A stretch of DNA of 64,000 nt, from contig JAGWVT010000001.1 in NCBI GenBank assembly GCA_018970765.1, forward strand, positions 1 through 64,000, in the 5' to 3' direction. The notes under the pieces were generated by a model. That model had not been told where the DNA came from. It saw only the letters and a list, made by a program, of their open reading frames with translations, and made no database searches. Shown here piece after piece: positions 7,141 through 58,742 of this stretch; within the stretch, counting starts at the first letter, position 1, and every line of letters begins with the position of its first letter. A program made the translations under genes and the position numbers. The stretch comes from Actinomycetales bacterium. Lineage in GTDB: Bacteria > Actinomycetota > Actinomycetes > S36-B12.

Positions 7141-7913
7141 TTGCCACGGTCATCAACACCAAGCACCTGCTCGTGGTTCGTGAGCGCCTTTTGAAACTCT
7201 CGCCGGACGCGCATGCGCCACTCCAAGGCCTCACTTGGATTCGCCTGTCGTAACCCAACGATGTCTTCGGGAATCTCGATGATCTGGCAGGTCGACCCCA
7301 GGTCAGCAACGGTTGTGTTGATGGCTGGCAGCGGGTGGATGGCGGCGCGAACTGCCCGGGCTGAAGCCACCGGCCACCAGGCGAGCAGGCGATCCGTCTC
7401 GTCCCCGTGGTTCAGTTCGTCATCCATGGCTCCATAGAAATTGACCTCGTAGCGTGCCACCTCCACGCCAAGATTGCGCAGGTTGAAGACCGCGTTGCGG
7501 CGCACCAGCGGATCAAATGTCCAGGCGATGACGGGTAGGTGTTGCTGCAGTGCCCAGAGGCGCTGGTGCTGCTTGAGGGCGGTGCCGATGCCACGATCGC
7601 GGGCCCCTGATACGACGCCGGCCATATGCGAGTGCAGCACCTCGATCCATCCGGTCGTTGCATCCCGATGTCTGCCCGGTAGGGCCACCGCGGCACCTAC
7701 GGGCTCGCCGTCAGCCAGAGCGATGCTTGCGTAGCCACCGGAGTAGGTGATCGCCTTCAGCAGGTTCGGTTGCAGTTGAGTACTTCCGGACACCGCGGGC
7801 CAGACGGCGTCGCAAACCTCGCGGACCAGTTGAAGTTCGGACGGGGATTGCGCTAGGTGTACTTCGACACCGGAGCGCTCGCAGGCTCGGGCGACAGCTT
7901 GTTCGGCAGACAC
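7104..7913 (-). CDS. GNAT-superfamily acetyltransferase-like protein (COG3375-like)
   Basis: A protein of about 269 residues resembling the large GNAT-like family typified by COG3375: VGAAVALPG, then ATTGWIEVLHSHMAGV and the acetyl-CoA loop SGARDRGIGTALK, followed by ITWTFDPLVRRN-like IAWTFDPLVRRN and FNLRNLGV. Function is unknown in this group. Start choice: the frame is open to GTG 7982, but GTG 7913 has a GGAG six bases upstream. It also leaves the repeat-bearing region 7940-7985 as non-coding control DNA. The 3' end is convergent with and overlaps the PfkB gene. Confidence 0.68.
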   Translation of the reverse strand: MSAEQAVARACERSGVEVHLAQSPSELQLVREVCDAVWPAVSGSTQLQPNLLKAITYSGGYASIALADGEPVGAAVALPGRHRDATTGWIEVLHSHMAGVVSGARDRGIGTALKQHQRLWALQQHLPVIAWTFDPLVRRNAVFNLRNLGVEVARYEVNFYGAMDDELNHGDETDRLLAWWPVASARAVRAAIHPLPAINTTVADLGSTCQIIEIPEDIVGLRQANPSEALEWRMRVRREFQKALTNHEQVLGVDDRGNYVLAPEGSTEP

Positions 7914-7939
7914 GATCAACTCCGGATCGACTCGCACGT

Positions 7940-7985
7940 GTACACGGTAGGCGATGCGCGGGTACACCGTGATCGGGTACACCGT
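7940..7985. repeat. Three GTACACSGT repeats upstream of divergent GNAT and M20 genes
   Basis: GTACACGGT (7940-7948) and two copies of GTACACCGT (7962-7970 and 7977-7985). The last two lie in identical 12-base direct repeats GGTACACCGTGA at 7961-7972 and 7976-7987, spaced 15 bases start to start. They sit just upstream of the M20 peptidase start at 8010 and upstream of the preferred GNAT start. Repeats of this kind can be regulator-binding sites. If the GNAT protein instead starts at 7982, they would merely encode a repeated TVYP. Confidence 0.5.
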
Positions 7986-8009
7986 GAGGCGATACAGCAG
8001 GATGTCAGC

Positions 8010-9101
8010 ATGATCAGTACCGACAGCCTGGTGGCTGATATTCGCTTACTCGTCGAAACTGAATCACCAACCGAATCGGTTGCGCACTGTCGGGCAGCCG
8101 CGGAATTGACGCAGGAAATTTGTACGAAGTGGTTGGGTGAGCCGGCGCGCATCGAAGAGCACGAAGGCCGACCGATCCTGCGCTGGGGTCAAGCGCAACC
8201 CCGGGTTCTCATCCTGGGCCACCTCGATACCGTGTGGCCCGTCGGAACACTGCAGCGACTGCCGTGGTCCTGCGATGGTGAGCGGATGCGCGGGCCCGGT
8301 GTCTTCGACATGAAAGCCGGGGTGGTGACCGCCATCGCGGCGCTCAGCCTGGTGCCAGATCGTTCGTCGATCGGCCTGATGTTCACCACAGATGAAGAGA
8401 CCGGCTCGTGGGCGTCACGTGCGGCCATTCATCAGGCCATTGCTGAGGCGCAGGCCGTGCTGGTCTTCGAGCCATCATTGGACGGCAAACTCAAGTCGGC
8501 GCGCAAAGGCACTTCCTGGTACCGACTGCGATTCACCGGCCGCGCCGCGCATGCCGGCTTGGATCCCGAACGTGGGGTGAATGCCCTGCTGATGGCTGCG
8601 CATTGCGCTACGGAAATTGCCGGATTCGCAGACCGTAGTCAGGGCAGCACGGTCACACCGACCATGCTTAGTGCTGGTACGACGGCGAATACTGTGCCCG
8701 CGCAGGCAGAACTCGTCGTGGACGTGCGCGCCTGGTCGTCAACCGAGCAGGAGCGCATTGATCAGCAGGTGCGTGCCTGCGCCCTCGTCGCGGCCGGTGA
8801 GTTCGGTGGCCTGGAAATTCTCGGCGGCATCGATCGCCCAGCCATGGCGGAGCAGGCGTCGGCGTCGCTGCTGCCCCTCGTGCGGGCAGCGGCTGAGAGC
8901 CTGGGGCTTCCGGTGCCAGGCCACTGTGCGGTTGGCGGCGCCAGTGACGGCAACCTGACGGCTGCCGCCGGAGTCCCCACCCTTGATGGGCTGGGACCGC
9001 TAGGGGACGGTGCCCACGCCGATCACGAGTGGGTGAGTGTGGCCGATCTAGTTCCCCGAACGGAACTTGTCGCGTGTGTGCTCGGCGATTTGGGCTGCTA
9101 A
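8010..9101 (+). CDS. M20-family metallopeptidase (carboxypeptidase G2-like)
   Basis: A 363-residue dinuclear zinc hydrolase. Predicted ligands and catalytic residues sit in the usual places: HLDT (His71, Asp73), GVFDMKAGV (bridging Asp100), TTDEETGS (Glu129/Glu130), FEPS (Glu154) and a late GDGAHADHEWV His. The dimerisation-domain motif GRAAHAGLDPERGVNA is present. The closest pattern I recognise is the glutamate carboxypeptidase/CPG2 group, which removes C-terminal Glu from folates or peptides; related members deacylate amino acids. ATG 8010 was chosen because homology begins there; the frame is open to 7857 through the divergent regulatory region. Confidence 0.85.
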   Translation: MISTDSLVADIRLLVETESPTESVAHCRAAAELTQEICTKWLGEPARIEEHEGRPILRWGQAQPRVLILGHLDTVWPVGTLQRLPWSCDGERMRGPGVFDMKAGVVTAIAALSLVPDRSSIGLMFTTDEETGSWASRAAIHQAIAEAQAVLVFEPSLDGKLKSARKGTSWYRLRFTGRAAHAGLDPERGVNALLMAAHCATEIAGFADRSQGSTVTPTMLSAGTTANTVPAQAELVVDVRAWSSTEQERIDQQVRACALVAAGEFGGLEILGGIDRPAMAEQASASLLPLVRAAAESLGLPVPGHCAVGGASDGNLTAAAGVPTLDGLGPLGDGAHADHEWVSVADLVPRTELVACVLGDLGC

Positions 9102-9119
9102 GGCGGCAGCTGGGTACGA

Positions 9120-9136
9120 ATTGAATTCGATTCAAT
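9120..9136. promoter_or_regulatory. Perfect inverted repeat and possible promoter before the lectin-like gene
   Basis: ATTGAAT-TCG-ATTCAAT is a perfect palindrome with 7-base arms at 9120-9136. Its left arm contains TTGAAT (9121-9126), which lies 18 bases before TACCAT (9145-9150), giving a plausible -35/-10 pair for the gene starting at 9209. A palindrome over a -35 element is what a repressor operator looks like. The AT-rich arms stand out against the surrounding GC-rich DNA. No protein is known to bind here. Confidence 0.5.
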
Positions 9137-9208
9137 CCCTGGGTTACCATGGGCGTTCTCACAAAGACGCGTGGCTCTCGGTGTGCACCGGAGCTAAGGG
9201 AGTCAGGC

Positions 9209-11926
9209 ATGAAGCGAACGCTTGGGCGGGTGTTCGTGGGAGTTGGCACAGTCACCGTCGCCTTGGTCATCGCAGGCTTGGCGTTGCCGCAGTGCCAGCC
9301 GCAGGCTGATGCGGTCGGCGCCACGCCTGGTTACCCGGGCATCACCGGGCCTTCGTCAGCAGCCTCTGGTGGTTTGAATACCGCGATCACGATCGGCAAT
9401 TTCACGCTCACCGATGCATCGGCCGGTGGTTCGGCCTGCAATATCGGAACGGTGCGTGCGGTGCTGTCGACCGACTTGGGCACGATCACTGCTACCGCCC
9501 CTTCAGGTGGCTCAGTATCGGGGTCGGGGACTGCGACGGTGACGCTCACCGGTTCGGTTGCCAACGTCGAGGCTTCCCTGGATGCCGCGACCCTCAGTAG
9601 CGCCTCAGCCGGGACGGCGACAGTCACCACGACCTTCCGGCCTAACAACACCTTCACCTCGGGCTCCGATAGTTACGTATTCGGCAACACCACGGGCCAC
9701 TACTACCGGGTGTACAACAACAGCACTTCAGTGGTGTGGTCGACCATGCGCACGAATGCCAATTCCACGTCGTTTTGCGGTGCGGGGGGCTATCTCACGA
9801 CTATCACCACTGCTGACGAGCGCACCAGCATCCAGAGTCTGTCCAGTTATGCCGATGCGGCCTATTGGCTGGGTGCGGTGCGCTCCTCCAGTTCGAGCAC
9901 ACCCAACGGCAGCGCCTGTACGTCGAGTTCCTGTCTGTGGTACTGGGACCCGGGTAGCAATGCGCCGTCGAGCGATCAGGCTGCTCGGATGAGTTACGGC
10001 GACCCGGGAAACCCACCGGGAACCAACGTCGGTACGCCATGGCATTCGGGTGAACCGAACAACTCCGGTCCCTATCTGGCCCTGTCGCCGGCCAGCTCGG
10101 TCTACAACTGGGACGACGTAGCAAGCGGCATCACTTTGCAGTATGGGTTGATCGAGTTCGGCAACAACACCTCTTACACGGTTGCTTCAGTAACGTCGAC
10201 CGTGCTCGTCGCCCAGTGCACCGCGACCACCACGAACTACACCGCGGACGGCACTAACGGGGTTAATGGCGCCCGCTATCGGGTGGTGAGCTTCACCAGC
10301 GGGGCAAGAACGGCCTGCGCATCCACCTGGTCGGCACCCACGGGTATTACGTCAGTAGACGTGCTCGTGGTCGGGGGTGGCGGTGGCGGCGGATCGGATG
10401 CCGGCGGTGGCGGTGGCGGAGGCGGTGTGCGCGAGCGGGCCTCGGTCACCGTCAGTGGCGGGTCGAGTTATGCCGTGACGGTCGGCGCTGGTGGTAGCGC
10501 AGCTCGATGTCCGCGTAATGCCGACTACAACAACTCGGATAACTGCGACCCCCGATCGCTGGCCACCTACGACGGCGCAGGTGCCTCTGGCGGTTCCAGT
10601 TCCTTCGACTCGATCACCTCGACCGGCGGTGGCGGCGGCGGATCCAAATTCGTCAGTGCCTACGCATCCAATGCACCCGGTGATGGTGTCGCGGGGGCAT
10701 CCGGTGGTGGTGGTGGTCACCCGACCAGCCAGCCCGGTGGTGCCGGGAGTTATGCGACGGACGGTAATGCTGAGACGCTCGGCAATGCCGGTGGAACCTC
10801 CGACAGTGGCAACGACTTCGCCGCGGGTGGTGGAGGTGCCGGTGGTGCTGGTTCCAACGGCACTGCCAGTGGTCCCGGGGCCGGTGGTGCCGGGGCCACT
10901 TCGGTTCTCACCGGTGCTTCGGTCACCTACGGTGCCGGCGGTGCCGGTGGCCGACACAGCACCGGCAGCACGGCCACCGCATCCAGCGGTGGTGGCAACG
11001 GTGCCGGCCGAACCTCGGCCGCAGCCGCTGGCACCAACGGACGCGGGGGTGGTGGCGGAGGCGGCGGCAATGTTGGTGCAGGATTCGGCACCGGCGGTGA
11101 TGGCGGTTCCGGTGTCGTCATCCTGCGGTATCGCATCGACATTAGCTCCACGACAACCGACCAGGACACGTCAACCGCGTCGACGGTGGACGTGGCGTTC
11201 GGCAAGGTGGGCACGGCCTTCTCGCAGGCGCTGACCTTTAGTGGAGGCCTCGGTCCAACGTTCTCGTACGCAGTCGTGAGCGGTTCGCTCCCGGCTGGAC
11301 TGGGCCTGGATGGTGCGACGGGTCGCACGCTGACGATCTCGGGAACGCCAACTGTCGGAGGGATTTCGACCGTCACCATCCGGGCAACGGATGCTGATGC
11401 CGGAAACATCCCCACGGATCAACAGGTGACGATCGCGATCACCGACCTGGTGATGCCTTCGCTGCTGCTCGCTGACCCACGGGCGACCTCGTTGACCACG
11501 CCAGGTCCCAGCACGCTTGCTGGCGGTGCAAACATGGTGACCTGCGTCTACTCATCGAACGCGTCTGGGGCCGAACTCAACACCGCGACCGTACGCACCG
11601 ACACCGCGAGCCTGGGTTCCACGGAGACATCCCGCGCGGTCGGTGGTGCCACGGTCACCCTCAGCAACGACAACGGTTACGGCGTGTTCAAGGCGCACGG
11701 CAGTACCGCGGCAAATCTTCAGTCGCTGCTCGGTGGCGCCAATGGCCTACGCATCACGAAATCGACCGGTCAGGCGTCAGGCTTCTATTTCACGGTCAAG
11801 GTGATTCCCTACTGGTCGTCGGTGCCGGCCTGCACGGACAGCAATGCCGGGACCATGTCCCAGGTTGTCCAAGTCAAGCCGCTGGGCATCAAACGCACGG
11901 TGACCACGCCGGTCACGGTGGAGTAG
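9209..11926 (+). CDS. Large secreted protein: C-type lectin domain, glycine-rich region, putative Ig-like domain
   Basis: A 905-residue exported protein. ATG 9209 has an AAGGGA-type ribosome site and begins a signal peptide (MKRTLGRVF, hydrophobic core VALVIAGLAL). Residues of about 155-320 read as a C-type lectin domain, with GHYYRVY at the start, a GEPNNSG calcium/sugar motif near residue 281 and YNWDD near 300. Residues of about 387-635 are extremely Gly/Ala/Ser-rich, with runs such as GGGGGGG. A He_PIG-like Ig domain follows (about 664-743; SGSLPAGLGLDGATGRTLTISGTP). The C-terminal 150 residues are unassigned. No LPXTG or membrane anchor is seen at the end. Probably a surface or extracellular adhesin-like protein. 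Confidence 0.82.
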   Translation: MKRTLGRVFVGVGTVTVALVIAGLALPQCQPQADAVGATPGYPGITGPSSAASGGLNTAITIGNFTLTDASAGGSACNIGTVRAVLSTDLGTITATAPSGGSVSGSGTATVTLTGSVANVEASLDAATLSSASAGTATVTTTFRPNNTFTSGSDSYVFGNTTGHYYRVYNNSTSVVWSTMRTNANSTSFCGAGGYLTTITTADERTSIQSLSSYADAAYWLGAVRSSSSSTPNGSACTSSSCLWYWDPGSNAPSSDQAARMSYGDPGNPPGTNVGTPWHSGEPNNSGPYLALSPASSVYNWDDVASGITLQYGLIEFGNNTSYTVASVTSTVLVAQCTATTTNYTADGTNGVNGARYRVVSFTSGARTACASTWSAPTGITSVDVLVVGGGGGGGSDAGGGGGGGGVRERASVTVSGGSSYAVTVGAGGSAARCPRNADYNNSDNCDPRSLATYDGAGASGGSSSFDSITSTGGGGGGSKFVSAYASNAPGDGVAGASGGGGGHPTSQPGGAGSYATDGNAETLGNAGGTSDSGNDFAAGGGGAGGAGSNGTASGPGAGGAGATSVLTGASVTYGAGGAGGRHSTGSTATASSGGGNGAGRTSAAAAGTNGRGGGGGGGGNVGAGFGTGGDGGSGVVILRYRIDISSTTTDQDTSTASTVDVAFGKVGTAFSQALTFSGGLGPTFSYAVVSGSLPAGLGLDGATGRTLTISGTPTVGGISTVTIRATDADAGNIPTDQQVTIAITDLVMPSLLLADPRATSLTTPGPSTLAGGANMVTCVYSSNASGAELNTATVRTDTASLGSTETSRAVGGATVTLSNDNGYGVFKAHGSTAANLQSLLGGANGLRITKSTGQASGFYFTVKVIPYWSSVPACTDSNAGTMSQVVQVKPLGIKRTVTTPVTVE

Positions 11927-29554: not shown

Positions 29555-31176
29555 CGTGCTCCCTGCCAGCGTGCAGCCATGCGATCGATCGATAGCACCA
29601 GCGCCAAAGTGACCAGACTAAGGATGACCGCAAGTGCTGCTGCAGCGCTAAAAGTCTGTTCACCGGGTCTGCTCAGCAGTCGGGCAATGGCCACGGGAAG
29701 TGTTGGGCTGCTCGGTCGACCGAGGAACGAAGCGGCACCGAATTCCCCGAGGCTGACCGCGCAGGCGAGCCCGCCTGAGGCGATCATCACGATGCGAAGT
29801 GTCGGGCCATAGGCGGTGAAGAAGGCGCGGAGCGGATGTGCACCAAGGGTTGCGGCCACAGCTCGTCCGTGATCTTCAGTGCTGCGAAGCCCGGGCGCGG
29901 CGACAGCAATAACCAACGGAACGGCGACGAGCGAATGTGCGAGTGGAATGAGAAGTCCGGAGTCGCGCAAGTCCAGGGGGGGACGCCCATAGGCCAACAG
30001 GGTGCCTAGTCCGATTGTGGCCGCGGATAGGCCAAGAGGCAGGATGCCGAGCAGAGCAACCAGTCGACCGGCTCGATTGGCGATGAGCGCAAGCGCGCTC
30101 GCGGCGCCGATGGTTGCTGCGAAGACTCCTGCCACGAGGGCGAACATGACGGAAGTAACCATCGCCTGCAGGGGTGAACCGATGCGAGTTGTTCCGCCGT
30201 CAATGCGTCCAAGGCTGAACCAGGAATCCAGACTCACATGCCCGCCGACATGTATTGATGCCGCTACCAAACTCGCAATGGGCGTTAAGACAGCCAGACA
30301 GGAGGCCACCGCTGTGGTGAGCACGAGGATTCGGCCCAACCGATGGCGCGGTAATGGCAGTAAGGCTGGGCGATCGAGTCGTTGTTGCGGGGTGCGGCGA
30401 GCAACAAGTGCTGCCGCGGCAAGAACCACACCTATGAGCGCAAGTTGAACAAAGGCAGTTGCCGCCGCTGCCGGAAAGTCCAAGAGCACTGACGTCTGCC
30501 GCAAGATCAACATCTCGAGGGTCTGCAGGCGACCGTCACCCAAGATCGTCACGATCCCAAGCGAGGTAAATGAAAAGATGAAGACAATTGCCGCTGCCGC
30601 GGCCAGTGGTGCACGAAGCAGCGGAATGGTCACCGTGCGAAATGCCGTGAGGGGATCTGCCCCGAGGGTCCGAGCGGCGGCTGCCGGCATTGGATCCTGA
30701 TGTGCCCAGGCTGAGCCAACGATGCGCACCACCACAGCGAGGTTCACGAATGCGTGGGCAGCAATGATGACGAGTAGGCCGGACGGACGCTCTATCCCGG
30801 CTATCCCCAGCCCCGATCGGAACGCGAGCGCGACGACCACAGTCGGGAGGACGAAGGGCACCGTCAGGAGTGCGAGAGCTACAGCTTGACCGGGAAAGCG
30901 GTAGCGCGCGACGACTGCGGCAATGGGCACACCGATCAGTAGGGCGACGACGGTGCTGAGAATGGCCTGCCCTGTAGCCAAGATCAGTACCTGCCAGAGT
31001 GCAGGAGAAGCCACCGACTGCCTGGCTTGGTCCATATTGACGTGAAGCAGCAGGTTGATCAGCGGCCAGACTAAGAATGCGCCGATGAACAGTGCGGGGA
31101 GCAGCCAGAGCCATCGGATGACGAGCGGAAAGGCCAGTGGTGAAGTTTGCGTCACCGCTGCATCACTGTGCCCCAC
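29551..31176 (-). CDS. thiP: Thiamine ABC transporter permease (ThiP-like, fused two-domain)
   Basis: A 541-residue permease carrying two ABC permease halves in one chain, about twelve transmembrane segments, as in ThiP and iron(III) FbpB proteins. EAA-like loops are visible in each half (AAARTLGADPLTAFRTVTIPLL and GRAVAATLGAHPLRAFFTAYGP). Linkage to a TbpA-type binding protein under a TPP riboswitch supports thiamine rather than iron. It overlaps the binding-protein gene by 25 bases. Confidence 0.88.
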   Translation of the reverse strand: MGHSDAAVTQTSPLAFPLVIRWLWLLPALFIGAFLVWPLINLLLHVNMDQARQSVASPALWQVLILATGQAILSTVVALLIGVPIAAVVARYRFPGQAVALALLTVPFVLPTVVVALAFRSGLGIAGIERPSGLLVIIAAHAFVNLAVVVRIVGSAWAHQDPMPAAAARTLGADPLTAFRTVTIPLLRAPLAAAAAIVFIFSFTSLGIVTILGDGRLQTLEMLILRQTSVLLDFPAAAATAFVQLALIGVVLAAAALVARRTPQQRLDRPALLPLPRHRLGRILVLTTAVASCLAVLTPIASLVAASIHVGGHVSLDSWFSLGRIDGGTTRIGSPLQAMVTSVMFALVAGVFAATIGAASALALIANRAGRLVALLGILPLGLSAATIGLGTLLAYGRPPLDLRDSGLLIPLAHSLVAVPLVIAVAAPGLRSTEDHGRAVAATLGAHPLRAFFTAYGPTLRIVMIASGGLACAVSLGEFGAASFLGRPSSPTLPVAIARLLSRPGEQTFSAAAALAVILSLVTLALVLSIDRMAARWQGAR

Positions 31177-32261
31177 TCGGTGAGCCAGCTACTGAGGTTC
31201 TCTGCCACCTCCTGTGCTGGGAGCTGTTCCGGATCGGGAACCTGCGCCGCGAACTTGGTGAAGACCTCGGGCAGCGGCGTTCCCTGTCGCGCCGGGAATA
31301 CGAACATGCTCAGCGGGATGTCGGCCTGCACGGCAGGACTGAGTAGCCACTCGATGACTGCTCCTGCCGCCGCTGGTTGCTCGGTGCCCCTCAGCACGCC
31401 GGCATACTCGACTTGGCGGTAGCAGCCATCGGTGAGCACGGTTGTCTGGGGTCGGGCAGGGGGAGTCCCCTCTGCGTAGACGATCTCTGCGGGTGGGCTG
31501 GTTGCGTAGGAGACCACCAGCGGTCGATCACCACCGCTCAGACTAAATGATCCGTAGTAGGCATCAGACCAGCTCCCCGCCACCGCGACGTCGTTTTCGA
31601 GTAGGCCGTTCCAGTAGCCCGGCCAGTCATTGCCGTAGCGCGCAATCGTGCTGAGTAGGAAGGCGAGTCCCGGTGAAGAGGTGGCTGGATCAGTCACCAC
31701 GAGTTGACCGCGGTAACGCGGGTCGATGAGATCGGCAAGTGATGTTGGTGGAGTCAACTGCGCATCGTTATACCACTTCGTGTCGATATTAATGCATACG
31801 TCGCCATAGTCGACCGGCGTCACGACTGCGTCCGTGCCCTCATTAAGCGCAGGTGTGATGGTCTGTGGATCCTCGACTTGGAATGGCTGGAAAACCTCGG
31901 CGTCAAGTGCGCGAGCAAGCAGGGTGTTGTCGATGCCGAACAGTAGGTCCGCGCTTGGTGCGCCAGCTGTCAGAATCGCGCCAGACACCATGGACCCTGC
32001 ATCACCCGCGGTGATGATCTGCAGGTCTATGCCGGTCTGTTTACGCAAGTCATCAAGCAAGGCCTGATTGATCGCAAAGGAGTCATGCGTAAGCATGCGC
32101 ACGGTCGTCGGCGTGCCTGGCACCCAATCCTGCTGAGTGGACTCAGATGATTCAGGTGAATCGGTGGATTCCGTGGGCCCAGTGTTAGTGCAGGCCATCA
32201 GCAACACGCTTGCGGCAGCGAAGGTGCACACGGCGAGTACTCGGGGGAACAGTCGATGCAT
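31152..32261 (-). CDS. thiB: Thiamine ABC transporter substrate-binding lipoprotein (ThiB/TbpA-like)
   Basis: A 369-residue lipoprotein with lipobox VLLMAC followed by a Ser/Thr/Glu-rich linker. The mature part matches ThiB: VRMLTHDSFAIN, DLLFGIDNTLLARAL, TPVDYGDVCINID and DGCYRQVEYAGVLRGTEQP. It binds thiamine or its phosphates outside the cell. ATG 32261 is chosen because GGAGGG lies seven bases before it; the in-frame ATG at 32282 lies inside the riboswitch and cannot be the start. The riboswitch therefore controls access to this ribosome site. Confidence 0.9.
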   Translation of the reverse strand: MHRLFPRVLAVCTFAAASVLLMACTNTGPTESTDSPESSESTQQDWVPGTPTTVRMLTHDSFAINQALLDDLRKQTGIDLQIITAGDAGSMVSGAILTAGAPSADLLFGIDNTLLARALDAEVFQPFQVEDPQTITPALNEGTDAVVTPVDYGDVCINIDTKWYNDAQLTPPTSLADLIDPRYRGQLVVTDPATSSPGLAFLLSTIARYGNDWPGYWNGLLENDVAVAGSWSDAYYGSFSLSGGDRPLVVSYATSPPAEIVYAEGTPPARPQTTVLTDGCYRQVEYAGVLRGTEQPAAAGAVIEWLLSPAVQADIPLSMFVFPARQGTPLPEVFTKFAAQVPDPEQLPAQEVAENLSSWLTEWGTVMQR

Positions 32262-32265
32262 TGGG

Positions 32266-32352
32266 CATCCCTCCGCTGGCATTACCCAGATCAGGTCAGC
32301 GGGTCGATGGCGGCGGCCACCCTCTCAGCCCGGCGATCCACCGAGCTCCCCA
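32266..32352 (-). ncRNA. TPP riboswitch (THI element) controlling thiBPQ
   Basis: Reading the minus strand: GGGGAGCTC (5' side), then CTGAGAG (32322-32328 on the plus strand), a variable stem with GGTGGCCGCC, then CCTGATCTGG (32286-32295) and GTAATGCCAGCGGAGGGA. The CUGAGA and CCUGAU...GNNAAUGCCAGCG-AGGGA blocks are the conserved pyrimidine- and pyrophosphate-binding segments. The ribosome site GGAGGG sits inside the 3' conserved strand, so ligand binding should hide it and block translation. Confidence 0.93.
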
Positions 32353-32357
32353 AGCGC

Positions 32358-32363
32358 ACCATA
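32358..32363 (-). promoter_or_regulatory. -10 box for the thiamine riboswitch transcript
   Basis: Minus strand TATGGT, followed by GCGCTTG and then GGGG of the riboswitch, which fits initiation at about 32351. It sits in the 23-base gap between the riboswitch and the stop of the upstream phosphatase gene. No clear -35 was found. Confidence 0.55.
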
Positions 32364-53938: not shown

Positions 53939-54806
53939 TGCAATCCGCATCATGGGTATCACCGGGTTCGGCTACCACGGTGTTTTGGACTTCGAGCGTC
54001 GCGACGGTCAGGAGTTCGTGGTCGACCTTGAGATTGCGACGCCAAAAGTCGGGGAGAGCGCGGTCAACGATGACATTGCGGCCACGCTCGATTATCGAGA
54101 CCTCCTTGACCGCACACATGCGCTGATCACCGGCCCGCCACTTCAACTGATTGAGACCCTTGCCGAACGGATTGCAGCCAGCATCCTCGATGCCGGCGCT
54201 TCGGCCGTGCACGTGACTGTTCACAAACCTCACGCGCCACTGCCAGTGCCGGTCAGTGACGTAGCGGTCGCGGTTATGCGGCGTCGCATCCGTGCAGTAA
54301 TTGGGCTCGGTGCCAATCTGGGCGATGCCGCACACGCGCTGCAGGAGGCGGCTCAGGCGATCCTCGCGCTGCCACGGGTGCGACTGGTAGCGGCTTCGAG
54401 TATTTACGACACCGCACCGATAAGCGATATTCCCCAGCCTGACTACTGCAACGCGATCCTCATCGTGCAGGCGGACTGGGATCCGGCAAGCCTGTTGAGG
54501 CAGTTGCATGTGATCGAGGCTTCGTTCGGGCGAGCACGTACCGAATCCATGGGTCCGCGCACCTTGGACCTCGATCTGATTGACGTCAGTGACGTCGACG
54601 GACCAGTGACCAGCGACGCCGAGTTCTGTCGGGTGCCGCATCCGCGCGCCGGTCAACGCCGATTCGTCCTTGAGCCCTGGGCGCAGATTGATCCGCAAGG
54701 TTGGCTCAGTTGGTCCGGTCCGGTTGTCGCACTCCTGGCCGCATTGGGTGACCAGCAGGGCGTGCGTAGAACAAGCCAAAGTCTGCTCTCCGGGGTGAGT
54801 GCCTGA
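53931..54806 (+). CDS. folBK: Fused dihydroneopterin aldolase and HPPK (FolB-FolK)
   Basis: A single 291-residue chain. Residues of about 1-120 are FolB (ITGFGYHGVLDFERRDGQEF, with the active-site GYHG; then TLDYRDLL and ETLAERIAASIL). Residues of about 121-291 are FolK (AVIGLGANLGDAAHALQEA, SSIYDTAPISDIPQPDYCNA, RTLDLDLIDV, VPHPRAGQRRFVLEP). There is no stop or restart between them. The two steps are consecutive: dihydroneopterin to 6-hydroxymethyl-dihydropterin, then its diphosphate for FolP. It overlaps folP by eight bases. In many actinobacteria these are separate genes. Confidence 0.93.
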   Translation: MLDAIRIMGITGFGYHGVLDFERRDGQEFVVDLEIATPKVGESAVNDDIAATLDYRDLLDRTHALITGPPLQLIETLAERIAASILDAGASAVHVTVHKPHAPLPVPVSDVAVAVMRRRIRAVIGLGANLGDAAHALQEAAQAILALPRVRLVAASSIYDTAPISDIPQPDYCNAILIVQADWDPASLLRQLHVIEASFGRARTESMGPRTLDLDLIDVSDVDGPVTSDAEFCRVPHPRAGQRRFVLEPWAQIDPQGWLSWSGPVVALLAALGDQQGVRRTSQSLLSGVSA

Positions 54807-54807
54807 G

Positions 54808-55368
54808 ATGCAACCGACTCGAATCCGAGTACTCCTCATCCTCGGCTTGGTAGCTGCAGCGTTTGGATGGAGCCTGGTGGCGGTGATCCAGGGGCAGTCC
54901 GGCAGGACACTGCCCGTGCCCTGGTTGGCGGGAATCACTATGTGGGTCCTCGCCACGGGATTGACGATCTGGACGCTCATGAGTCGACCCCGACTGCTGC
55001 GGCGTCCCGGTGCTCGCCCGATGCCCCCACTGGTAGCGGCCAGAACCGCTGCGCTTGCCATGGCTGCCTCGCGCACAGGTGCACTGATTAGTGGTCTGTA
55101 TGCGGGAGTTAGCTTGGGGGCGCTGTCCATCGTCACCTCCCGCGATACACCTGCGGGTCAGAACACACTGTTTGCCGCGTTGACCGCCTGCGCTGGCGCG
55201 TTGGCGCTGGCCGTGGTCGCGGTCTGGCTGGAGCGCATCTGTCGGCTGCCTCAAGATCCCGGCAATGACCAGGATGGGTTGGCGTCGGGTGGTCAGGCTC
55301 GCAAGGAGCCGGGTGCTGCCAGTGCCCGGGTAGGCTCGCCGCACATCAGTGATGAGAGGTGGCCGTGA
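54808..55368 (+). CDS. DUF3180 membrane protein
   Basis: A 186-residue protein with four predicted transmembrane segments (starting MQPTRIRVLLILGLVAAAFGW; later LVAARTAALAMAASRTGALISGLYAG). This matches DUF3180, an actinobacterial family found next to folK. Function unknown. ATG 54808 directly follows the folBK stop; GTG 54799 is in frame upstream. Its stop overlaps the next start (GTGA). Confidence 0.85.
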   Translation: MQPTRIRVLLILGLVAAAFGWSLVAVIQGQSGRTLPVPWLAGITMWVLATGLTIWTLMSRPRLLRRPGARPMPPLVAARTAALAMAASRTGALISGLYAGVSLGALSIVTSRDTPAGQNTLFAALTACAGALALAVVAVWLERICRLPQDPGNDQDGLASGGQARKEPGAASARVGSPHISDERWP

Positions 55369-55734: not shown

Positions 55735-56865
55735 TCATCGATCAATATCGCCGACGACTAGGAACATCGAACGCAGTGCGTCAGCGAGACGCTCCAACGG
55801 TGTTCCGGGTAGTGCGCGCACCAGCGCCTGTGCGTGATTGAAGGACGGGGTACGCAGTTTCAGGCGCCATGGCGAGCGTTCGGCCGTGCTGACTAGGAGA
55901 TATCCCTGCATGCCGAGCGGTCCTTCGATTGCGAAGTACCAGGAGCCTTCAGGCACGCGCACCACTTTGGGCAGCGGGACATCCACCGGTCCGTCCCCGA
56001 GTTCACGCACTCTGGTCAGGCACTGCCGGACGAGCTCGATGCTCGACCGCACTTCGGTGAGTAATTGCCTGTAGCGGGACTGAGCATCGCCGGCAGACTC
56101 ACGCTCATGGTTTGCCAGATGCGTTCCAGTCCTCTGTAGCTCGGGATAGGCCAGGTAGCCAGGTTGCCAACGCAGGTCGAGATCAAGCCCGCTGGCACGT
56201 CCAACAGGGCCACTGGTACCGAAGGTGATCGCATCGCTGGTACTCAACAGCCCGATCCCGCGCAGATTTGCGGTGCGCTGTTCGACCTCGCTGGCGATGT
56301 CCTGCCAGGCTGCCAGCAAGTCATTGAGTACCTGCTCGGCGGCATCAAGCCACTGGAGATCGAGTGGCTGCGCAAGTCCTCCGATTCGGGTGATCATCGG
56401 GTGGACGCGGTTACCGGTCGCACGCTGCTGGATGCTGATGAAAGTTTCGCGCCAGGGTAGGACGCGTGGCGTGAGCGGTTCTAGGAGTAGGAGCATTGCG
56501 GTGATGCGAGTGAACTCGGCCAACAGTGTCCGAGACCAGGTCGCACGTTCGGGCGGGGTGATGCCGAGTGCCTGTTCGATGGTCAGGGCCACGCCGAGTT
56601 CGCCGTGGAAAGCCGAGAGCCAGTCATGACGGTTCGCGAGCATCAGGATCTGTCGATAGTCGCGCGCCTCGAACAGTTTCTCAGCGCTTCGATGGAGGAA
56701 GCCAACAATCGGGTCAGCTGTGGTGATGATGCCATCGCGCACCGTGAGATCGAGCATGAGTGCCGCATGCCCGGTCGGATGCAGGTCGCCAAGATCCAAT
56801 GCGATGTCGACATCAAGATACCGAGCTGCGCCTACGCCGACTCGAATGTGCTCGCACACCGTCAT
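55735..56865 (-). CDS. Orphan NuoD-like protein (complex I 49 kDa subunit homologue)
   Basis: A 376-residue divergent paralogue of NADH dehydrogenase subunit D. It aligns from DLGDLHPTGHAALMLDLTV (NuoD: G-P-x-H-P-x-x-H-G-x-L) through DPIVGFLHRSAEKLFEARDY (NuoD: GxLHRGxEKL) to the terminus, where SPWRLKLRTPSFNHAQAL and a final GDIDR mirror NuoD. No other nuo gene is near. The Arg of the LHR motif is kept; its human equivalent is, as I recall, the dimethylated NDUFS2 Arg85. ATG 56865 overlaps the methyltransferase stop (ATGA). Role unknown. Confidence 0.82.
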   Translation of the reverse strand: MTVCEHIRVGVGAARYLDVDIALDLGDLHPTGHAALMLDLTVRDGIITTADPIVGFLHRSAEKLFEARDYRQILMLANRHDWLSAFHGELGVALTIEQALGITPPERATWSRTLLAEFTRITAMLLLLEPLTPRVLPWRETFISIQQRATGNRVHPMITRIGGLAQPLDLQWLDAAEQVLNDLLAAWQDIASEVEQRTANLRGIGLLSTSDAITFGTSGPVGRASGLDLDLRWQPGYLAYPELQRTGTHLANHERESAGDAQSRYRQLLTEVRSSIELVRQCLTRVRELGDGPVDVPLPKVVRVPEGSWYFAIEGPLGMQGYLLVSTAERSPWRLKLRTPSFNHAQALVRALPGTPLERLADALRSMFLVVGDIDR

Positions 56866-57827
56866 GACGGGCTCACCGGTGAGCTCCGGCGCGTCGCCAA
56901 CAGGTACATTCCCGGCGGCATACTTGATGACATCGGCAGTCGTCGTAGCGTCCCACCACTTGGGGTACTTGCCTGCAGAGCGTCCATTGCCACGTGTGCG
57001 GTGAGGTTGGCATGACCGTCCGTGCGTGGAGCAACGGCGCGGCCATCGCGATATCCGATACAGGTGCCGGCGTCCCAAGTACCTGCGACTCGCTCAGCTT
57101 TGACGTGGCCGTAGTCGATGGCCAGCGCCCAGCCAACAGCCACGTGATCAACGATCAACTGCCACAGGTGCTCGCGCGGCATGCCAATCTCGCAGCGCAT
57201 GAAGGATCGTTCGATCGGCCACCACTGTGCAGCCCAGGATTCCCATTGGCGAAACTCGTCACGCTCCGGCGAGTCGACGGGTGGGCCCAGGTACGCCTGG
57301 TGGTCCTGGGCGAGGATCACGCGCGCACGCCCATCGCAGTCCGCCTCGATGATCGGGCAGGGTAAGTCATCGAGAAGTTCATGGGCAATGGCAATTCCCG
57401 TGATTGCTGGCTGACCGGCAAGTGTCTGGCGCAGATCGCCGCAGACCCACGCGATACGTGAATCAAGGCCTACCGGACGCGGTCGAAGGTCGAAGCCGCG
57501 AAGGTTGATGCGCTGGCTCAGCTTCTGGTCGTCACTCCAGTTGGCGATGTCCTGGAGCAGTTGCCCTGATGCCGCTCCCAAATCTTCGATACAGGCATGC
57601 CGGTGATGTTCGAGGAACTCGCCGATGTAGTCGGTGACGAGGTCAGCGATGGCCCGTCCAGCCGTAACTGCGGTACGGAAGTGCCCCTCGGGGGCCTGGC
57701 GGGTGTAGAAGCCGTTTGGGCCGAATGCACTCTCCTGCCAGGCCTGTTCCCATGTCGGTAGATCAGTCGGTCGTTCGGTCGGCAGATCCGGTCGGACGGG
57801 TGACGGCACGACAGGGACGCTACCCAC
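56862..57827 (-). CDS. MidA/NDUFAF7-like SAM-dependent methyltransferase
   Basis: About 321 residues. GPNGFYTRQAPEGHFRTAV, the SAM loop CIEDLGAASGQLLQDIA, AIAHELLDDLPCPII (MidA: ANELLDALP) and ALAIDYGHVK (MidA: IDYG) identify the family. Human NDUFAF7 methylates the complex I subunit homologous to NuoD, and the gene is directly coupled to the orphan NuoD-like gene here. Start uncertain: the frame is open to 57938, but that overlaps the divergent DUF2520 gene. GTG 57827 has GAGAG upstream, and GTG 57809 is also possible. Confidence 0.78.
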   Translation of the reverse strand: MGSVPVVPSPVRPDLPTERPTDLPTWEQAWQESAFGPNGFYTRQAPEGHFRTAVTAGRAIADLVTDYIGEFLEHHRHACIEDLGAASGQLLQDIANWSDDQKLSQRINLRGFDLRPRPVGLDSRIAWVCGDLRQTLAGQPAITGIAIAHELLDDLPCPIIEADCDGRARVILAQDHQAYLGPPVDSPERDEFRQWESWAAQWWPIERSFMRCEIGMPREHLWQLIVDHVAVGWALAIDYGHVKAERVAGTWDAGTCIGYRDGRAVAPRTDGHANLTAHVAMDALQASTPSGGTLRRLPMSSSMPPGMYLLATRRSSPVSPS

Positions 57828-57830
57828 CTC

Positions 57831-57836
57831 TACGCT
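57831..57836 (+). promoter_or_regulatory. -10 box (TACGCT) for a leaderless DUF2520 mRNA
   Basis: TACGCT-CTCAAC-GTG: TANNNT six bases before GTG 57843. It lies in the very short gap to the divergent methyltransferase. Confidence 0.6.
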
Positions 57837-57842
57837 CTCAAC

Positions 57843-58742
57843 GTGTTGACCGGTGCCCCACCACGCCTGCGCGTCGGCGTGGTCGGTGCCGGCCGTGTTG
57901 GTGCGGTCTTCGGTGCGGCGCTGGCTCGTGCGGGCCATCAGGTCGTCGCGGTTTCGGCCATCTCTCAGATGTCGGTGTTACGTGCCCAAGCGCTCCTACC
58001 GGGTGTTCCCATCACCGATGTGCTGACGGTAGTTCAGGAAGCCGAGTTGGTGGTCCTCGCGGTACCGGACGACGTACTCGCCGAACTGGTCACCGGCCTT
58101 GCCGAGACTGGTTCGGTGCGAGCCGGGCAGTTCTGGTGCCATCCGGCCGGTGCCCATGGCATCGAGGTGCTGGCGCCCGTGGCCCAACGTGGCGCGATCC
58201 CACTTGCCATTCATCCGGTGATGACCTTCACCGGCACCAGCATCGACCTTGCGCGCCTTGCTGACTGCCCCTTCGGAGTTACCGCACCCGAAGGGTTCCG
58301 TTCCGTGGCGGAGGCATTGGTCGTGGAAATGGGCGGCGAGCCCATCTGGGTGCCCGAACAGGCACGTGCTCGCTACCACGCAGCTTTGGCGTTAGGTGCC
58401 AATGGACTGGTGACCCTGGTGAACGCGGCGCTTGATTTGCTGCGTGAATCGGGGGTGGCAGATGGCCGTCGACTCATCGAACCGCTCCTTCAGGCCAGCC
58501 TCGAGAACGCGCTGCGCATGGGTGACCAGGCGCTGACCGGCCCGGTTGCCCGGGGTGACGCGGCCACTGTGGCGACCCACCTTGAAACAATCGCGGACGC
58601 CCAACTTGAAGTGGCGTACGCCTACCGGGCGATGGCTCGGCTCACGGCTTTGCGAGCAGTCGACTCCGGGCTTCTGGCCCCCACTGCCGCGGAATCATTG
58701 CTCGACGTTCTCGCCCGCGACATCGCTGAGGGTGGTGCCTGA
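57843..58742 (+). CDS. Rossmann-like / DUF2520 protein (candidate ketopantoate reductase)
   Basis: A 299-residue dehydrogenase-like protein. The NAD(P) motif RVGVVGAGRVGAVFGAAL (about 10-27) is followed by VLAVPDDVLAELV, then a DUF2520 half with HPVMTFTG and YHAALALGANGLVTLVNAAL. Function is not proven for this family. It lies two bases before panC, and no panE is in the window. A structurally related non-PanE ketopantoate reductase called PanG has been described in Francisella, so a role in pantothenate synthesis is a reasonable hypothesis. Confidence 0.85.
   Translation: MLTGAPPRLRVGVVGAGRVGAVFGAALARAGHQVVAVSAISQMSVLRAQALLPGVPITDVLTVVQEAELVVLAVPDDVLAELVTGLAETGSVRAGQFWCHPAGAHGIEVLAPVAQRGAIPLAIHPVMTFTGTSIDLARLADCPFGVTAPEGFRSVAEALVVEMGGEPIWVPEQARARYHAALALGANGLVTLVNAALDLLRESGVADGRRLIEPLLQASLENALRMGDQALTGPVARGDAATVATHLETIADAQLEVAYAYRAMARLTALRAVDSGLLAPTAAESLLDVLARDIAEGGA

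Follow-up and report, generated by a model that had tools for sequence, protein, structure and literature searches.

A divergent NuoD paralog and an adjacent MidA/NDUFAF7-family methyltransferase in an actinomycete: a likely D subunit of a second complex I-type module and its candidate arginine methylase

The window analyzed here, i.e., the whole stretch of 64,000 nucleotides of actinomycete DNA (GC content of 62%), harbors on its minus strand a gene for a divergent NuoD homolog, here termed NuoDx, together with a gene for a methyltransferase of the MidA/NDUFAF7 family, as originally observed. We consider it likely that NuoDx represents the D subunit of a second complex I-type module which lacks the NADH module and whose cluster N2 is tuned by the MidA-family enzyme. 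NuoDx (nuoD2) would join NuoB2, which would carry cluster N2, NuoC2, and NuoI2, with its two 4Fe-4S clusters, all of which are encoded elsewhere, beside korAB. The most likely point of electron entry would be reduced ferredoxin from 2-oxoacid:ferredoxin oxidoreductase, from which electrons are predicted to reach N2 of NuoB2 by way of the two NuoI2 clusters and to exit at the NuoB2/NuoDx interface. The neighboring enzyme is presumed to symmetrically dimethylate Arg59 of NuoDx, a residue predicted to lie beside N2, and the modified arginine may help to lock NuoDx onto NuoB2 and to tune N2. In Streptomyces and others, the module would possess its own membrane arm and thus form an 11-subunit complex I, whereas the window's lineage appears to have lost this arm and to retain only B2-C2-D2-I2.

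The coordinates of both genes and of their relevant codons are listed in Table 1. The sequence reveals an overlap of 4 bp between them, formed by the TGA stop codon of the methyltransferase gene (56864 to 56862) and the ATG of NuoDx (56865 to 56863). Rather than the first codon of the longest open reading frame, the downstream GTG is regarded as the more likely methyltransferase start, because overlap with the divergent gene at position 57843 is thereby avoided. The gene order is tilS-hpt-ftsH-folE-folP-folBK-DUF3180, followed by the NuoDx/MidA pair and then by the divergent DUF2520-panC-nadB-nadC-coaX, with no other complex I gene near the pair in this locus of the window. The pair is situated between the DUF3180 gene (54799 to 55368), at the end of the folate genes, and the DUF2520/panC gene (57843 to 58742), at the start of the pantothenate/NAD genes; the same spot is the site of NuoDx and MidA in many actinomycetes, often with intervening genes. 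A plasmid search returned no match. Elsewhere in the window, a TPP riboswitch (Rfam RF00059, 61.5 bits; 32251 to 32362, minus strand) is located upstream of an apparent thiamine ABC-transporter operon (31152 to 32282 and following, minus strand).

Table 1. Features of the NuoDx/MidA locus (positions in the window)
Feature	Position	Strand	Remark
NuoDx (nuoD2 type), divergent NuoD, 376 aa	55735..56865	-	Proposed substrate and D subunit of second connecting module
MidA/NDUFAF7-family (PF02636, COG1565) methyltransferase	56862..57827	-	Likely start GTG 57827
Methyltransferase, longest open reading frame	56862..57938	-	Starts at 57938
ATGA overlap, methyltransferase stop/NuoDx start	56862..56865	-	From sequence
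NuoDx Arg59 codon CGA	56689..56691	-	Aligned with Arg85 of bovine/human NDUFS2, which is dimethylated; canonical NuoD of same genome has Thr
NuoDx Trp82 codon TGG	56620..56622	-	Quinone-site Tyr in canonical NuoD (Tyr108 bovine, Tyr87 Thermus)

NuoDx belongs to PF00346 (143 bits; cut-off, 24) and retains the FLHRSAEKL block and a C-terminal GDIDR, while its score of 213 bits against the NCBIfam equivalog for standard NuoD falls below the required 360, with similar outcomes for other models. Its AlphaFold model is weak (pLDDT 59), yet retrieves NuoD/NDUFS2 chains in a structure search. In a scan of named genomes, whose matches were mostly Streptomyces, NuoDx and the second NuoD of that genus proved to be members of one family. 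Two other identities were considered and ruled out. The large subunit of [NiFe] hydrogenase binds NiFe by two CxxC motifs, both of which are absent from NuoDx, where the only two cysteines are far apart; a recent copy of canonical NuoD is incompatible with the tree, in which the canonical clade is separate (support of 1.0) and NuoDx splits off deeply. A normal NuoD is also present in the same genome, encoded within a complete nuo operon on contig C26.

At 46 bits against a cut-off of 23.3, the methyltransferase is assigned to PF02636, and it is the only protein of this family found in a search of the window's genome. It displays the family motifs HFxT, GAxxG (the SAM loop), HExLDxxP, DYGH, and TAHV, which are largely kept across 20 relatives. 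Its AlphaFold model is poor (pLDDT 44). A profile of its relatives reached three solved structures and no others, these being the COG1565 proteins 4f3n (5e-21) and 1zkd (6e-15) and the NDUFAF7 homolog 5ztz (3.6e-10). The original prediction had described a NuoD homolog with an LHR-x-x-EKL block and a C-terminal DR, whose ATG overlaps the stop codon of a methyltransferase of the MidA/NDUFAF7 family, and this description is borne out by the above data. According to reviews, NDUFAF7/MidA is of alpha-proteobacterial origin (PMC9006661).

Candidate partners of NuoDx are encoded outside the window. On contig C207 of the same genome (L126:2436-6717), nuoB2-nuoC2-nuoI2 is divergent from korA/korB, which specify 2-oxoacid:ferredoxin oxidoreductase, and NuoI2 is a two-cluster NuoI-like protein. 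In relatives, the nuoB2-C2-I2 cluster is located just downstream of the nuo operon and, in most of those inspected, is accompanied by korAB; korAB does not adjoin nuoB2 in all genomes. The proximity of nuoB2-C2-I2 to korAB points to a module of the complex I type fed by ferredoxin. Two or more NuoB-family genes were present in 115 of the 119 NuoDx genomes, a count which hydrogenase subunits inflate in some genomes without NuoDx. The nuo2 operons of a Streptomyces genome (G023) and of G399 specify A, B, C, H, I, J, K, L, M, and N, the sole core subunit absent, apart from the NADH module, being D. Judged by this gene content, NuoDx is predicted to supply D for nuo2 in Streptomyces and G399, and once it is counted as such, the complement of an 11-subunit complex I (A, B, C, D, and H to N, without E, F, and G) is found in both. 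In G399 (L180), a genome rated 100% complete, no canonical NuoD was detected, only NuoDx, nuo2, and MidA. The passages on nuo2 in the published Streptomyces literature describe a partial second complex I operon without the NADH module and with nuoD2 apart, and list no nuoC2 and make no mention of MidA (PMC3765725, PMC8388888); a NuoC-like subunit was located inside nuo2 in G023 (L142, about 7576 to 9315) and in G399 (L180, 9161 to 9724).

The residue on which the proposed methylation centers is well documented in other systems. Arg85 of NDUFS2, which follows GLLH, is symmetrically dimethylated by NDUFAF7 (PMC3829151), while the equivalent arginine is dimethylated in Paracoccus and unmethylated in Escherichia coli (PMC3750175); this position adjoins cluster N2, and mutation of the arginine abolishes functional N2 (PMC8042128). 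In our alignment, the equivalent column contains Arg in 62/62 NuoDx proteins and Thr in 47/47 canonical NuoD proteins, including that of the window's own genome, so that the methylatable residue is present only in the paralog which accompanies the enzyme. Given the unmethylated arginine of E. coli, Arg by itself is no proof of methylation. The arginine is also part of a reciprocal arrangement, as the NuoD Arg of Yarrowia faces a NuoB Thr, and Thermus combines a NuoD Thr with a NuoB Arg that fills the equivalent space next to N2 (PMC8042128). The corresponding NuoB column, assigned by motif (VAGR in canonical NuoB and xxGT in NuoB2) and not by structure superposition, contains Arg in all 40 readable canonical NuoB proteins and Thr in all 21 NuoB2 proteins. 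Canonical NuoD-Thr is, therefore, matched with NuoB-Arg, and NuoDx-Arg with NuoB2-Thr, a complementarity which, at the level of sequence, argues independently for NuoDx as the partner of NuoB2. Canonical NuoD, with Thr at this position and a compensating Arg in its NuoB, cannot be the MidA target there.

Of the 297 genomes surveyed from the window's class, 106 contain both genes and 175 contain neither, NuoDx alone was detected in 13, and MidA alone in 3; these genomes are related and several are incomplete, and Fisher p-values on their counts overstate the support. Within families, the two genes appear and vanish together; in one family (f90), for example, 11 genomes possess both and 16 lack both. 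MidA occupies the flank of 75 of the 80 Streptomyces NuoDx loci, the remaining 5 being truncated. Where both genes reside on one contig (95 genomes), the gap between them ranges from approximately 0.1 to 11 kb, and MidA lies directly upstream of NuoDx in the same direction in 26; tight translational coupling is local to the window and not general. The class contains 109 genomes with MidA, and the 3 without NuoDx include 2 that are incomplete; G353 (L162, 5279 to 6985), with a MidA-like protein and no detectable NuoDx, is the only one of the 3 that is fairly complete. The possibility that MidA had merely been overlooked in the apparent NuoDx-only genomes was addressed with a tailored profile, which recovered the enzyme in four (G399, G460, G312, and G440); it was rejected, as 10 well-covered NuoDx genomes, 5 of them from the window's own family, stayed negative in the genome-wide search. 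NuoDx retains its arginine in these 10 genomes, which indicates that the enzyme is not strictly required. From these distributions, it seems that MidA requires NuoDx and that NuoDx can manage without MidA.

The retention of the arginine where MidA was not detected would also be expected if the two proteins were functional neighbors only, with the MidA-like enzyme methylating another protein, RNA, or DNA and the NuoDx arginine being unmethylated as in E. coli. Three genomes from other classes of the same phylum (G092, G208, and G279) encode PF02636 proteins alongside just one detected NuoD each, which carries Thr in the methylatable position; the family is thus likely to have other targets there. 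DNA methylation by the MidA of Wolbachia was tested in a 2025 paper (PMC12455994). We nevertheless regard such a mere neighborhood as unlikely, in view of the near absence of MidA without NuoDx in the class, the exclusion of canonical NuoD as a target through its Thr, and the match of the enzyme's profile to the structure of an NDUFAF7 homolog. The preferred interpretation, that of an enzyme and its dedicated substrate, was already part of the original prediction and is well supported by comparison: the arginine aligns with the NDUFS2 residue that NDUFAF7 dimethylates, the pair recurs in other actinomycete genomes, canonical NuoD has Thr, and the window's genome has only one MidA. NuoDx had further been viewed as an orphan, which is accurate as to its location, with no complex I gene nearby, but not as to its probable partners NuoB2, NuoC2, and NuoI2 on contig C207. 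The accompanying claim that enzyme and substrate act alone, outside complex I, is not upheld, since NuoDx is matched by these three subunits and is predicted to complete a second complex I in many relatives; only where the second membrane arm has been lost, as in the window's lineage, could the pair be placed apart from a complex I that pumps protons.

In that lineage, a single NuoH is found in the window's genome and in the whole family, with no second membrane arm, and A, H, and J to N are absent beside B2-C2-I2 at contiguous loci of relatives. One NuoH is likewise the number in 44 of the 119 NuoDx genomes, the window's included, and NuoDx is thereby ruled out as a component of a complete second complex I in the window's genome, where only B2, C2, D2, and I2 of the 11-subunit set are present. 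The iron-sulfur ligands are kept, with both 4Fe-4S motifs in 21/21 NuoI2 proteins, the CC and GCPP cysteines in 21/21 NuoB2 proteins, and the segment bearing the third cysteine in 18 of the latter, the other three being unread by a simple motif search. By comparison, the quinone-site Tyr column contains Trp in 58/58 NuoDx proteins versus Tyr in 47/47 canonical NuoD proteins, and the HP[SA]THG loop, containing the quinone-site His, is preserved in 24 of 28 NuoDx proteins where the genome encodes two or more NuoH, as against 2 of 30 where it encodes a single NuoH. This combination implies that the electron wire has been retained while the quinone pocket has been relaxed, which fits a module freed from its membrane arm. 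We propose that B2-C2-D2-I2 of the window's lineage probably serves as a connecting module, perhaps soluble, which receives its electrons from ferredoxin and whose N2 site is tuned by its own arginine methylase.

The single NuoH could also be shared, with B2-C2-D2-I2 docking where the NADH-fed arm would otherwise join the canonical membrane arm, so that the same proton pump would be driven by ferredoxin. Ferredoxin-fed relatives of complex I are known, namely, the cyanobacterial and 11-subunit enzymes, and a shareable NuoH is what those 44 genomes offer; the erosion of HP[SA]THG precisely where one NuoH is present would be odd in a protein that meets a membrane subunit and a quinone tunnel, and we judge such docking to be decidedly improbable. 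Still less credence is given to the suggestion that the module is a decaying remnant of nuo2, temporarily retained after loss of the membrane arm. The loss of seven membrane genes, the eroded quinone loop, the repeated loss of MidA, and the lower similarity of NuoB2 and NuoDx are in keeping with decay, but all 15 family members searched have kept a second NuoD-type and a second NuoB-type gene, the open reading frames are intact, and the cluster cysteines, the Arg, and the Trp are constant across many families. Returning to the connecting module, we tentatively raise the broader possibility, about which we have more doubt than confidence, that several actinomycete lineages have reduced complex I to a membrane-free wire of four subunits (NuoB2-C2-D2-I2), served by its own arginine methylase, which would convey electrons from 2-oxoacid:ferredoxin oxidoreductase to an acceptor different from the quinone usually bound in the tunnel.

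If correct, these proposals provide a natural test of arginine methylation at cluster N2, with two arrangements in one cell: a complex I with NuoD-Thr/NuoB-Arg, which needs no methylase, and a second module with NuoDx-Arg/NuoB2-Thr, which is accompanied by MidA. As Streptomyces possesses the pair, this is genetically testable in a tractable bacterium. The proposals would, furthermore, account for the displaced nuoD2 of Streptomyces and add a C subunit to nuo2, and they portray a complex I which apparently sheds its membrane arm yet retains its electron wire.

Several known systems bear comparison. The 11-subunit complex I of anaerobes and cyanobacteria has no NADH module. The actinomycete module resembles it in lacking E, F, and G while possessing B, C, D, and I, which implies an electron donor other than NADH, but it occurs alongside a full 14-subunit complex I, the gene for its D subunit is located elsewhere, all aligned NuoDx proteins have Trp in place of the quinone-site Tyr, and the window's genome is without a second membrane arm. 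In the case of Streptomyces nuo2 and its separate nuoD2, as described in the passages cited above (PMC3765725, PMC8388888), the D subunit is of the same family as NuoDx, whereas the window's lineage retains B2-C2-D2-I2 only. NDUFAF7/MidA and NDUFS2 of humans and Dictyostelium, along with the likewise dimethylated NuoD of Paracoccus, share with the present pair the enzyme family, the position of the arginine beside N2, and the NuoD-homolog partner (PMC3829151, PMC3750175); unlike in these systems, the actinomycete enzyme, whose methylation of NuoDx we infer, accompanies a second NuoD, and the main NuoD has Thr. Finally, the Arg/Thr switch at N2 of Thermus and Yarrowia (PMC8042128) comprises the same two arrangements, D-Thr/B-Arg and D-Arg/B-Thr; unlike either organism, one actinomycete genome holds both, one per complex.
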